From assembly GCA_022449765.1 (NCBI GenBank), contig JAKUPZ010000002.1, positions 1 to 64,000 on the forward strand: 64,000 nucleotides of DNA, given 5' to 3'. The position numbers were made by a program, and so were the translations under genes. This document shows positions 1 through 4,785 of this stretch, in pieces (position 1 is the first letter of the stretch; each line of letters opens with the position of its first letter). This stretch comes from Dehalococcoidia bacterium (lineage in GTDB: Bacteria; Chloroflexota; Dehalococcoidia; Lucifugimonadales; Australimonadaceae). The notes under the pieces were generated by a model, which saw only the letters and a program-made list of their open reading frames with translations, had not been told where the DNA came from and searched no databases.

Positions 1-512
1 TGTTTTTCAGCGGGATAGGTCAATTCTGCCTGCTCTGCAAGCTCCACCAAAGCATTCCCTGCCTTTCGCATGTAAGCCGGATCAAGTAAGTCACCTTCCT
101 CAAATAATCGAATCAGCTTGGGCTCAAGTCTGATGGTTCCTGAAATATTTTTTAAATTTGCGGTATTAAAATGCTTCATAGAATCGCTGATCCCTTCAAA
201 TGTGTGACCATTTGAAGGGAGAAATTTGCCCTTGCTGAATTCGAGTTGCTGCGAGATATTTGCTTCGTGCTCTACTTCGATAAGGGTGAAAGGGATATCT
301 CTAATGATCCCCTCGTCCCACCCTAAAGACCAGCGAGGTAGTTTAACTATACGAGCGCTAACTTTCCGCTGGGCTTCTTTAGTAAAAGTACCAAATGATT
401 CAATCCCAAAGCCGGAATTTCGCATCCTAGCCCTGTTAAAGAATGACCAGAATAGCAGGAAAGCAGTAATTGCTACGAATAAGAATATAGGGATCATATT
501 GTATGAGCTCAT
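1..512 (-). CDS. membrane-anchored protein of unknown function (3' end outside window)
   Basis: The reading frame is open from an ATG at 512 to the window edge, about 170 codons, with no stop. Residues ~6-22 form one hydrophobic segment (IPIFLFVAITAFLLFW) followed by basic residues, so the protein is probably inserted by an N-terminal helix with the rest cytoplasmic. I do not recognise the soluble part. A GGAG ribosome-binding site lies 8-9 bases before the ATG. The distinctive feature is upstream: an intrinsic terminator ends about 12 bases before the start codon and is preceded by a short Cys-run ORF, so expression may be attenuated. The gene also contains a perfect 12-bp inverted repeat at 191-220. 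Reality as a gene is likely; function is unknown. Confidence 0.7.
   Translation of the reverse strand, partial: MSSYNMIPIFLFVAITAFLLFWSFFNRARMRNSGFGIESFGTFTKEAQRKVSARIVKLPRWSLGWDEGIIRDIPFTLIEVEHEANISQQLEFSKGKFLPSNGHTFEGISDSMKHFNTANLKNISGTIRLEPKLIRLFEEGDLLDPAYMRKAGNALVELAEQAELTYPAEK
191..220. repeat. perfect intragenic inverted repeat, 12-bp arms
   Basis: Arms TCCCTTCAAATG (191-202) and CATTTGAAGGGA (209-220) are perfectly complementary around a 6-base loop. They lie inside the coding sequence of the 1-512 gene, in codons for the LPSN..TFEGI region. There is no U-run, so this is not a terminator. Confidence 0.9.
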
Positions 513-523
513 TTTTTAACTCC

Positions 524-552
524 AAAAAAAACCCCCTTGTTTTCAAGGGGGT
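524..552 (-). terminator. intrinsic terminator in the leader of the 1-512 gene
   Basis: On the minus strand a 9-bp GC-rich stem (531-539 with 544-552, tetraloop 540-543) is followed at once by eight T residues (531-524, the first shared with the stem). This is a textbook Rho-independent terminator. It sits just before the ribosome-binding site of the 1-512 gene and after the Cys-run short ORF. It could end transcription from the dehydrogenase gene, act as an attenuator for the 1-512 gene, or both. Confidence 0.85.
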
Positions 553-583
553 AAGCATTTTTCCTAGGTTTTTTAAAACTTTC

Positions 584-673
584 TCAGCGCACACCGTAAT
601 GCATGCAGCTAGAGGAAAAAGGGTTTGCTCCCCCCTCTTCGCTACAACAACAACAACAATTGAACATCATCAT
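584..673 (-). CDS. 29-residue leader peptide with five consecutive Cys codons
   Basis: A short ORF begins with three ATG codons (673-665) and soon has five TGT codons in a row (658-644), then a Ser/Gly-rich tail and a sixth Cys; it stops at TGA 586-584. No Shine-Dalgarno precedes it. A TAATAT hexamer lies 6 bases upstream of the first ATG, which is leaderless-promoter geometry. The terminator at 552-524 follows 31 bases after the stop, and the ribosome-binding site and ATG of the 1-512 gene come next. The order leader peptide with repeated codons, terminator, gene is the classical attenuator layout. Poly-Cys leaderless short ORFs acting as Cys-responsive attenuators are known from mycobacteria. 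The role here is inferred. Confidence 0.5.
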   Translation of the reverse strand: MMMFNCCCCCSEEGGANPFSSSCMHYGVR

Positions 674-679
674 GTGCAT

Positions 680-685
680 ATATTA
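680..685 (-). promoter_or_regulatory. candidate -10 box for the poly-Cys leader
   Basis: TAATAT on the minus strand ends 6 bases before the first ATG of the short ORF, so transcription would start at or next to the A of ATG. I see no convincing -35 box at 16-18 bp spacing. Confidence 0.35.
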
Positions 686-725
686 ATGGTACATCATTTG
701 AACTTTGGGCACCAGAAGAACTTCC

Positions 726-2463: not shown

Positions 2464-4785
2464 CTATTTAATTGCGGTTTCTTCCCTCCTTGGCCACCAA
2501 CTCCATTTCCCAAGTATGGCTGTCATGCTGGGGACTAGAAATGCTCTGACGATAAAAGTATCTATTAAGACCCCAAGCATTACTGCGAAGCCGAGCTGAA
2601 ACAGATCCCTAAGAGGCAGCGTAGTCAGAACGGCAAAAGTACCAGCAAGAATTATCCCAGCAGAGGTAATAACACCTCCAGTTCTTCCAACTGCAGTGGC
2701 TATACCCGCCTGCATGCCTTCCGCTTTGACAGCTTCACGAATCCTGGACATTACGAAAATATTGTAGTCAGCACCTAATGCGACTAAGAAAATAAACATC
2801 CAGACACCATTGGAGTAAGCAACCCCTGTATGGGAGAACACATTTTGGAAAATAAAGATTGCAATTCCAAAAGTTGCCCCGAAGCTTACTATCACGCTAA
2901 ATACCAGATATAGGGGGGCAACAAGGGATTTTAATAGAAGTACAAGTACTAAGAAGATTGCTAATAGAGAAACTGGCGCTAGCCAGCTTATGTCACTGTC
3001 AATTGATGCTTTGGTATCAGTTTGTAATGCTGTGGCTCCACCTACAAGCACTTGATAATTGTTGTCCATCCCTATTGATGAAGCAGCGGCAGCAGTACGT
3101 ACGGTGTTGATAAGCTCAAGTGCTCTTGAAGAGTAGGGGTCATCAGCTAGAGATATTTCTAGACGGGCTGTTGAACCATCAGGCGAAATAAACCTTCCAG
3201 CACCTTGTGCTAAAGCCTCAGGCATGGTCACAGGGATACCTATTGGCCGCGTAGGACCAGTGACGGTGGAGACCCCGTCAATGAGCGCAACTTGATTGGC
3301 CAAATTTTCTAAGTTTTGGTAGGACTCCATTATGTTGCCCTTTTTGCTCTCTACAAGCATTTCACTTGGGGCTAACTGCCCTGGCGGGAATGCGCTTGAT
3401 AGAAGAGCGTAGCCTACCTTGGATTCAGTATCGTCAGGAAACCCATCAAGAAAATTGTAGCTAGGTTTCATTGACCATGCTGGGAGAGTGGCAAGAACAA
3501 TTCCAACCATAGTAATAGTAAAAATCACACGTGGCTTCGAGCTAACTAACCTACCCGCCTTATCCCATACACCGTTGTTTGTATTTTGGGAGCCATCATT
3601 TTTACGAAATACTTTCCCTACGGTCCTTAAAACTAGCGAAATAATTATGGACGCTACCAGAAGAGGTAAAAATATGATGCTTAGTATTAAAGCAATTACT
3701 TTTCCAGCGCCGTCTTCTGGGATCAGGTTGTTGTTTGGCCAAAATGCCCATCTTCCTATGAGGGCGATTACAGCTGGAATAACAAATAACCCTGAAATTA
3801 GCACGACGACAATTGCCATAGCGAGCATAGGGCCAAGCGATTTAAAGGATCCAAAAGATGCAAAGCTGAGTGCGGACATAGCAACTACTGTTGTACCTGC
3901 TGACCCTGCGATTGAAGGCCCGACACTGGACATGGCTGCATGCATTGCAGACCATCTGTTTGGTTCTCGGGTGAGCTCTTCTTTATAACGAGAAACAATA
4001 AACATTGCGTAGTTAGTGCCCGCACCAAAAACCAGAATAGACATTATGGAGGTTACTTGCTGGTTTAAGGCTAATCCAAATTCTTTAGCAAGGATGGCAG
4101 ATATGCTTTGCGCCAGCATTAGAGATGTTCCCGTGACAATTAATGGCACAATTGCCAAGAGAGGCGAGCGGTAGATTAGTAGGAGAAGTACAAGAACTAG
4201 AACTACAGTAAACAAAGTTACTTTTATATCAATTGACCTAAAGACTTTTACTGCGTCATTAGTGATACCCGCAGGTCCTGTAACCGCAGATTGAATATTG
4301 AACATATCGCTTGCTTTTCGAGATTCAGTGACTAGCCAATCAACGGCTTCTTGGAAATCATCATTTGAAGGAGCACCACCGATCCCAACCACTACCATGC
4401 CCGTAGTACCAGAGGGTGAAATTAGCGTTGCTGCTGCTGCTGGAGAGTCAGTAGGAGAGAATACTGATGCAATTCTTTCAGGCGCAGCAGTAGTTTTAAT
4501 TGCGTTAGTGAACGTCGAGATAGCTTCCTGCAGTCCTGCAGTTTCCTGGCCAGAGCTAAATACCACCAGGGCTGGCACTCCATCATCTGATGGGAATTTC
4601 GTAGATTTTAGAGCTAAGGCAGTGACTGATTCAGCTTTTGGAGGCAGGAATTCGCTTTGCTCACCACTTGTTACTTCTGATAGAGCAGGAGCAATTGAGA
4701 AACCTCCTCCAATAATTAGAAGCCATAGTAATATAGCTACACCAGCGCCTCTGATACTGGACGAGCTGAATAATAGAGATTGCAT
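2464..4785 (-). CDS. MMPL/RND-family membrane exporter
   Basis: A 773-residue RND-superfamily protein of MmpL type, expected to export lipids, hopanoids or hydrophobic compounds using the proton gradient. It has the classic duplicated plan: one N-terminal helix, a large extracytoplasmic domain (~35-190), six helices (~195-400), a second extracytoplasmic domain (~430-590) and six more helices (~600-760). Charged residues typical of the proton relay occur in the central helices (GAGTNYAMFIVSRYKEE and GADYNIFVMSRIREA repeats). It lacks a partner membrane-fusion protein, as is usual for MmpL. The ATG at 4785 has only a weak AGG site. It is divergent from the amidohydrolase operon; the cargo is unknown. 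Confidence 0.9.
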   Translation of the reverse strand: MQSLLFSSSSIRGAGVAILLWLLIIGGGFSIAPALSEVTSGEQSEFLPPKAESVTALALKSTKFPSDDGVPALVVFSSGQETAGLQEAISTFTNAIKTTAAPERIASVFSPTDSPAAAATLISPSGTTGMVVVGIGGAPSNDDFQEAVDWLVTESRKASDMFNIQSAVTGPAGITNDAVKVFRSIDIKVTLFTVVLVLVLLLLIYRSPLLAIVPLIVTGTSLMLAQSISAILAKEFGLALNQQVTSIMSILVFGAGTNYAMFIVSRYKEELTREPNRWSAMHAAMSSVGPSIAGSAGTTVVAMSALSFASFGSFKSLGPMLAMAIVVVLISGLFVIPAVIALIGRWAFWPNNNLIPEDGAGKVIALILSIIFLPLLVASIIISLVLRTVGKVFRKNDGSQNTNNGVWDKAGRLVSSKPRVIFTITMVGIVLATLPAWSMKPSYNFLDGFPDDTESKVGYALLSSAFPPGQLAPSEMLVESKKGNIMESYQNLENLANQVALIDGVSTVTGPTRPIGIPVTMPEALAQGAGRFISPDGSTARLEISLADDPYSSRALELINTVRTAAAASSIGMDNNYQVLVGGATALQTDTKASIDSDISWLAPVSLLAIFLVLVLLLKSLVAPLYLVFSVIVSFGATFGIAIFIFQNVFSHTGVAYSNGVWMFIFLVALGADYNIFVMSRIREAVKAEGMQAGIATAVGRTGGVITSAGIILAGTFAVLTTLPLRDLFQLGFAVMLGVLIDTFIVRAFLVPSMTAILGKWSWWPRREETAIK

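Follow-up and report, generated by a model that had tools for sequence, protein, structure and literature searches.

Predicted Leaderless Cysteine-Codon Attenuators Precede an Orphan Gene and Sulfur Genes in Marine SAR202 Bacteria

Why should a short open reading frame (ORF) with a run of cysteine codons, followed by a strong hairpin and a run of T residues, stand immediately before a gene in an uncultured marine bacterium? The question is raised by positions 690 to 513, minus strand, of the 64,000-nucleotide stretch analyzed here (the window), which opens contig C2 in a 1.6-Mb Dehalococcoidia assembly and covers its first 64 kb.

A cysteine-codon leader and an intrinsic terminator precede the 1-512 gene

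The leader ORF comprises 31 codons on the minus strand (679-584; MHMMMFNCCCCCSEEGGANPFSSSCMHYGVR*) and has in-frame counterparts in two relatives, G001 (SAR202 cluster bacterium OSU_TB62, contig VFHU01000032.1 [L118], the sole same-genus genome compared) and G010 (another genus of the same family). It opens with four in-frame ATGs, where three had originally been counted; the five consecutive TGT codons at 658-644, the proposed sensor, and the TGA stop codon at 586-584 are as first described. The original prediction also held that a TAATAT box would serve as the -10 element of a leaderless transcript. We rejected this box because it abuts the ATG, so that as a -10 element it would place the start site inside the leader ORF. 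Alignment favors TACCAT (691-686), which aligns with the TATAAT of TATAAT-CTCTTT-ATG in G001, each 6 nt before an ATG. The putative promoter part thus consists of this -10 element and the 6-nt gap to the start codon (691-680), and most of the related leaders listed likewise have a TAnnnT box whose distance to the start codon is 6 to 7 nt. The leaderless conclusion is unchanged by the substitution: judged from sequence, transcription is predicted to start at or adjoining the A of the leader ATG.

Downstream of the leader ORF lies an intrinsic terminator (552-524, minus strand; ACCCCCTTG-AAAA-CAAGGGGGT followed by T8), which is conserved in G001 and has a counterpart in G010. The perfect 9-bp stem (552-544/539-531), AAAA loop, and T run (531-524) agree with the initial description; the spacing to the gene, given there as 8 to 9 bases, is slightly different, with a Shine-Dalgarno-like GGAG (523-520) abutting the T run and the ATG (512-510) 7 nt further on. 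At a threshold of nine perfect pairs, at least five of them GC, and at least six T in eight, this is the sole hairpin of such strength on either strand of the window, and none appeared in 10 Markov resamples of the 64 kb. The region 690-513 has a folding energy of -56.8 kcal/mol (z = -4.25 versus shuffles), and the fold of its G001 counterpart is much less unusual (z = -1.9). Rfam 15 covariance models gave no match at gathering score in 513-690 or in loci L005, L092, and L003, and the exact sequence of the conserved terminator block was absent from viral contigs. Elsewhere in the window, a strong near-palindrome at 1655-1696, in the gap between genes 726-1643 and 1711-2346, drew spurious microRNA models only from Rfam and is probably a terminator.

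The proposed regulated gene (3-512, minus strand) is cut, since base 1 of the window is the end of contig C2. Its 170 or more residues include one N-terminal hydrophobic helix and belong to no known family: searches of Pfam and NCBIfam returned no match, and the AlphaFold model (mean pLDDT 41) was unusable. A homologue of 181 amino acids (aa) is encoded in G010 (29% identity; E = 7e-13). None beyond it was found in 98 close, 250 order-level, and 400 phylum-level genomes, and the protein had no match in the searched genome contigs or viral contigs.

Leader, Cys run, and terminator recur in two relatives

A DNA search of the family matched the element in G001 (E = 1.5e-28), where the start codon, the in-frame Cys run, the terminator, and the next start codon are all kept. 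The G001 leader ORF reads MHKMFKCCCCSQEGGLTRFPLATRIAV* (the in-frame counterpart begins MHKMFKCCCCSQEGG) with four in-frame Cys codons, and its terminator is ACCCCCTTGAAATGAAGGGGGT plus a T run. Relative to the window, the indels upstream of the G tract that follows the Cys codons are whole codons (one Met and one Cys), and beyond the G tract the frame is shifted, which argues that conservation extends to the Cys codons and the RNA but not to the peptide. In G010, a TTGACA-17-TAGTAT promoter-like sequence, a leader ORF (MNFSMNTRAQMCCCCCEEASRPSVSARVLQTS*, the in-frame counterpart beginning MNFSMNTRAQMCCCCCEEAS, with five Cys codons), and a terminator (GAGGCCCCCTCT..AGAGGGGGCCTTTCTTTTT) follow one another upstream of the 1-512 homologue. 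The run represented in the window by five TGT codons is thus kept in frame in three genomes, and the check run here found leader, Cys run, and terminator conserved both in G001 and before the 1-512 homologue in G010.

The surroundings of the element change between these genomes. The gene upstream of it is divergent in G010, so that the terminator there cannot serve that gene, and in G001 the upstream neighbor is unrelated and about 500 nt away. Because the flanking genes differ among the window, G001, and G010, we conclude that the terminator is not part of an upstream gene. In G001, the start codon after the terminator opens a 28-aa hydrophobic ORF that resembles the N terminus of the 1-512 protein. 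Given its length of just 28 aa, this ORF may be a remnant or an alternative ORF, and the gene under the G001 attenuator may have decayed.

Two further features were seen around the G001 element. Directly upstream of it, at about 1721-1760 on the minus strand of L005, is a tRNA- or tmRNA-like 3' end (GGTTCAAATCCGTTTGGTGGCTCCA), possibly an integration-site remnant, at which ARAGORN and Rfam called no RNA. The gene that follows the attenuator and the 28-aa ORF (L005 5-1222, minus strand) encodes a helix-turn-helix plus cupin-like protein, with sub-threshold Pfam matches only.

Similar leaders precede sulfur genes

A search of the window's own genome for an ATG followed within 30 nt by (TGY)4 gave 11 matches. 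When these were read by hand, the Cys codons lay in an open frame in 2 of the 11: the window leader and a leader on contig C5. The latter (MKFGFNFTILTCCCCRKM*) has TAATAT 6 nt before its ATG, is by its sequence predicted to be leaderless like the window leader, and is followed by GCGCCCTTCTC..GAGAAGGGCGC..CTTTTTG and then by a gene of the sulfite/nitrite reductase (NIR_SIR) type (Pfam PF01077/PF03460), which we take to be an assimilatory sulfite reductase.

Cys-rich leaders with terminators precede the sulfite reductase orthologues in most of the 16 best-matching loci. The leader in G001 is MQIRVLNQNYFCCCQTKT; those in G013, G009, G004, and G014 share the form MNIAVTxCACCCRP; and G021, G010, and G022 carry MNIAVTTCACCRRP, MSFALNISFCCCCGP, and MTRSVDICRCCR, respectively. 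GTG-started ...NCACC/CACS forms occur in G002, G011, and G008, and ...VCTCRP forms in G062 and G027. G038 has a weaker leader candidate, and no Cys leader was found upstream of the sulfite reductase gene in G012 (L047). That upstream region in L047 is filled with short inverted-repeat elements (TTCCCGC..GCGGGAA).

The gene for CysH (phosphoadenosine phosphosulfate [PAPS] reductase, PF01507), which was not found in the window's own genome or in G001, is likewise preceded by Cys leaders and terminators in five relatives. Two of these came from the in-frame Cys4 matches of the family (MLSRATVCCCCC... in G009 and MISRASVCCCCC... in G004); the others read MSFQNACCCLP... in G010 and ..MCACPC../..MCACCC.. 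in G008 and G011. In G004, a ..CFCCSCC..MCCCC.. leader and a terminator also stand before a molybdopterin sulfite-oxidase-like gene (L160 1276-2524). The second in-frame Cys4 leader of the genome, before sulfite reductase, and the sulfite reductase and CysH leaders of relatives support the original prediction of a cysteine attenuator; such sulfur-gene leaders are spread over much of the family and are also found outside it. Taken alone, the ATG..(TGY)4 pattern showed no clear excess over a reversed control within the family; such matches are informative only as the in-frame, terminator-followed subset. A quick look at the 95 mostly chance matches of a TGCTA-box pattern in the window's own genome gave no further clear leader.

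Since the same design precedes sulfite reductase both in its own genome and in relatives, and CysH in relatives as well, the 1-512 gene most likely belongs to a cysteine-limitation regulon. Its link to sulfur is drawn by analogy, because the gene is truncated by the contig end and has no assigned function.

A predicted antiterminator overlaps the terminator

The original prediction proposed that the G6 tract after the Cys codons could pair with the C5 arm of the terminator, and folding with a ribosome stalled on the first Cys codon indeed predicts such an antiterminator. Its 5' strand (637-612, minus strand) consists of GAGGGGGGAGCA (637-626) and UUUUUCCU (about 620-613), and its 3' strand, AGGAAAAAUGCUUACCCCCUU (566-545, minus strand), overlaps the terminator 5' arm; within this 3' strand, AAAAATGCTTACCCCCTTGAAA is identical in G001. 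The G tract can alternatively pair locally in a predicted hairpin, hairpin 1. For constrained folding, the RNA was cut just before the terminator 3' arm and the ribosome footprint was blocked out. For the window leader, engaging the terminator 5' arm then brought a free-energy gain of -8.2 kcal/mol when the ribosome occupied the first Cys codon, -4.8 kcal/mol in the absence of a ribosome, and -2.5 kcal/mol when it occupied the stop codon. The gain was largest in the stalled state in nearly all of 13 leaders, the exception being the G009 CysH leader.

Across the set, the segments after the Cys codons show more complementarity to the terminator arm than dinucleotide shuffles do (combined p = 4e-5 for 12 near-independent leaders), and the stalled-minus-stop difference also exceeds that of shuffles (combined p = 1e-4 for 11 leaders), both combined values being optimistic because some leaders are related. 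The window leader by itself gives weak values (p = 0.10 in the duplex test, and 0.09 and 0.045), so that its antiterminator case rests on the leader set. For the sulfite reductase antiterminator, we discarded a column-wise count of covariation, since the register is one base different between genera.

For the complete transcript at equilibrium, the terminator is preferred in nearly all leaders at any ribosome position; the switch would therefore have to be kinetic, as in classical attenuators. The stop codon of the sulfite reductase leaders overlaps or adjoins the antiterminator segment (TAGGGC, TAAGGC), so that a terminating ribosome would cover the segment. The window-type ORF runs about 20 codons beyond the Cys run, and here hairpin 1 would more likely re-form behind the ribosome.

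Similar candidate leaders occur in other phyla

A scan of 84,980 species for TATAAT-(5..8)-ATG-(0..30)-(TGT)4, a sample in that it covers one promoter and codon form, gave at least 81 matches in at least 80 stretches, with the Cys codons in frame in 18 of the 81 matches listed. Among these listed matches, a cysteine synthase gene lies directly downstream of 3 of the 18 in-frame and 0 of the 63 out-of-frame cases (Fisher p about 0.01, with L112 having supplied the query). The three in-frame leaders are from Saprospiraceae (L107), Acidobacteriaceae (L112), and Clostridia (L138). Another of the 18 in-frame matches, in Chloroflexi EAC84 (L092 4300-4750), is a predicted leaderless MILNNNLNNCCCCHVT*, which stands with a C/G terminator before a RimK-type ATP-grasp gene; the product may be a ligase acting on thiols or peptides and controlled by cysteine.

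Some of these loci have features of their own. The in-frame Cys4 leaders of L112 and L138 are predicted to be leaderless and lie outside both Actinobacteria and Chloroflexota. In L107 (minus strand, reverse-complement coordinates about 4219-4560), cysteine synthase is preceded by two tandem Cys leaders, MKWQKVHMACCCCLFWWSERR* and MYCAQWTFCCAACCARFPFRKGGG*, and a strong terminator comes after each of them.

Leaderless poly-Cys attenuators with intrinsic terminators probably form a widespread, undescribed class outside Actinobacteria. The class would include a SAR202 regulon (sulfite reductase, CysH, the molybdopterin sulfite-oxidase-like enzyme, the RimK-type ATP-grasp ligase, and 1-512) and cysteine synthase in Bacteroidota, Acidobacteriota, and Clostridia.

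Proposed mechanism and alternative explanations

We consider it very likely that the window unit is a transcription attenuator of the classical trp/his type, with Cys codons in a leaderless ORF, and that it belongs to a sulfur regulon. Transcription would start at or next to the leader AUG. With Cys-tRNA(Cys) plentiful, the ribosome would pass the five UGU codons, the G-rich segment would be masked or refold locally, and the C5/G5 terminator would form, ending transcription before the 1-512 gene. With Cys-tRNA short, the ribosome would stall on the Cys codons, the G-rich segment would pair with the terminator 5' arm as an antiterminator, and RNA polymerase would read through. The sequence elements, their conservation, and their association with sulfur-assimilation genes in the genomes are observed directly. 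The alternative folds of the window leader are model predictions, and we infer the transcription start, ribosome stalling, cysteine as the signal, and the direction of the response.

Several other explanations would account for parts of these data. The region might instead encode a small structured RNA as a separate unit, promoter and terminator included, with the Cys ORF fortuitous; this would fit both the unusually stable fold of 690-513 (z = -4.25) and a conserved terminator in a block that stays constant while the flanking genes change between genomes. However, the region matches no Rfam family and its G001 counterpart reaches a z of only -1.9, the indels in the 5' half are whole codons with the Cys run in frame in three genomes, the start of the regulated ORF comes after the terminator in both G001 and G010, and the only other in-frame Cys4 leader of the genome precedes sulfite reductase; we therefore regard such an RNA as very unlikely. 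Least probable of all, in our estimation, is that the hairpin is the 3' terminator of gene 726-1643, a same-strand gene whose end is at 726, and that (TGT)5 is a slipped microsatellite. A caveat on the Cys run is that (TGT)n is a simple repeat and can expand by slippage. Yet the Cys run, terminator, and gene order persist where the upstream neighbor is divergent (G010) or unrelated and about 500 nt away (G001), and the sulfite reductase leaders use mixed TGT/TGC or CxCCC Cys codons that form no repeat.

Control could also act on translation, by attenuation or coupling, as inferred for mycobacterial leaders, instead of on termination. Mycobacterial poly-Cys leaders are without conserved terminators (PMC1262725), PMC13236596 calls their action translation attenuation, and the Shine-Dalgarno-like sequence in the window comes right after the T run of the terminator. 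Of the SAR202 cases examined, however, essentially all have a strong intrinsic terminator between leader and gene, and a segment immediately behind the Cys codons is predicted to pair with the terminator 5' arm in a mutually exclusive fold; we consider translational control highly improbable here.

On the preferred reading of transcription attenuation, SAR202 bacteria appear to switch on sulfite reductase, sulfate reduction genes, and a few others at cysteine shortage. If this is true, an abundant uncultured deep-ocean lineage needs no riboswitch or dedicated sensor protein to sense cysteine but relies on the coupling of leaderless translation to an intrinsic terminator, and leaderless initiation is tied to amino acid attenuation outside Actinobacteria. 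The arrangement would also provide a sequence signature for sulfur-regulon members in unculturable genomes and would mark the orphan membrane protein 1-512 as the product of a likely cysteine-limitation gene.

Comparison with known attenuators

In mycobacteria, poly-Cys leaderless ORFs have been described as cysteine-responsive attenuators (Canestrari et al. 2020, doi 10.1111/mmi.14498, as presented in PMC9031893, PMC9094748, and PMC13236596). The mycobacterial leaders resemble those described here in being short ORFs, leaderless (in SAR202 by prediction), with contiguous Cys codons, several of them before sulfur or cysteine genes, and a response to cysteine is proposed in both. They differ from the SAR202 elements, which belong to the phylum Chloroflexota and in which the Cys codons are immediately followed by a predicted antiterminator segment complementary to the terminator arm; the mycobacterial leaders are without a conserved terminator hairpin (PMC1262725), whereas an intrinsic terminator is conserved in SAR202. 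Cys leaders of Mycobacterium, Propionibacterium, and Bifidobacterium had been predicted in 2005 (PMC1262725). In these candidates, from Mycobacterium, the cys operons of Propionibacterium acnes, and cbs of Bifidobacterium longum, the Cys run lies toward the end of a short ORF that precedes sulfur genes, much as in the sulfite reductase leaders found here (e.g., MNIAVTMCACCCRP*). Those candidates are from Actinobacteria only, and no terminator was found in them, whereas the SAR202 leaders have terminators.

The searchable literature, which did not extend to a 2010 survey of bacterial attenuation (Lopatovskaya et al., cited in PMC4833913), gave no account of a cysteine attenuator from Chloroflexota. 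With the trp, his, phe, and ilv attenuators the elements share a regulatory codon run, a terminator with an alternative antiterminator (here a predicted one), and a gene immediately downstream; they differ in having Cys codons, a predicted leaderless ORF, and, in the window type, an ORF that continues about 20 codons past the Cys run. The kind of element is thus known from the mycobacterial poly-Cys leaders, and its intrinsic-terminator form, its lineage, and its orphan target appear to be new. In the way they would sense cysteine, the SAR202 elements resemble mycobacterial leaders; in the way they would control output, they resemble trp/his attenuators.
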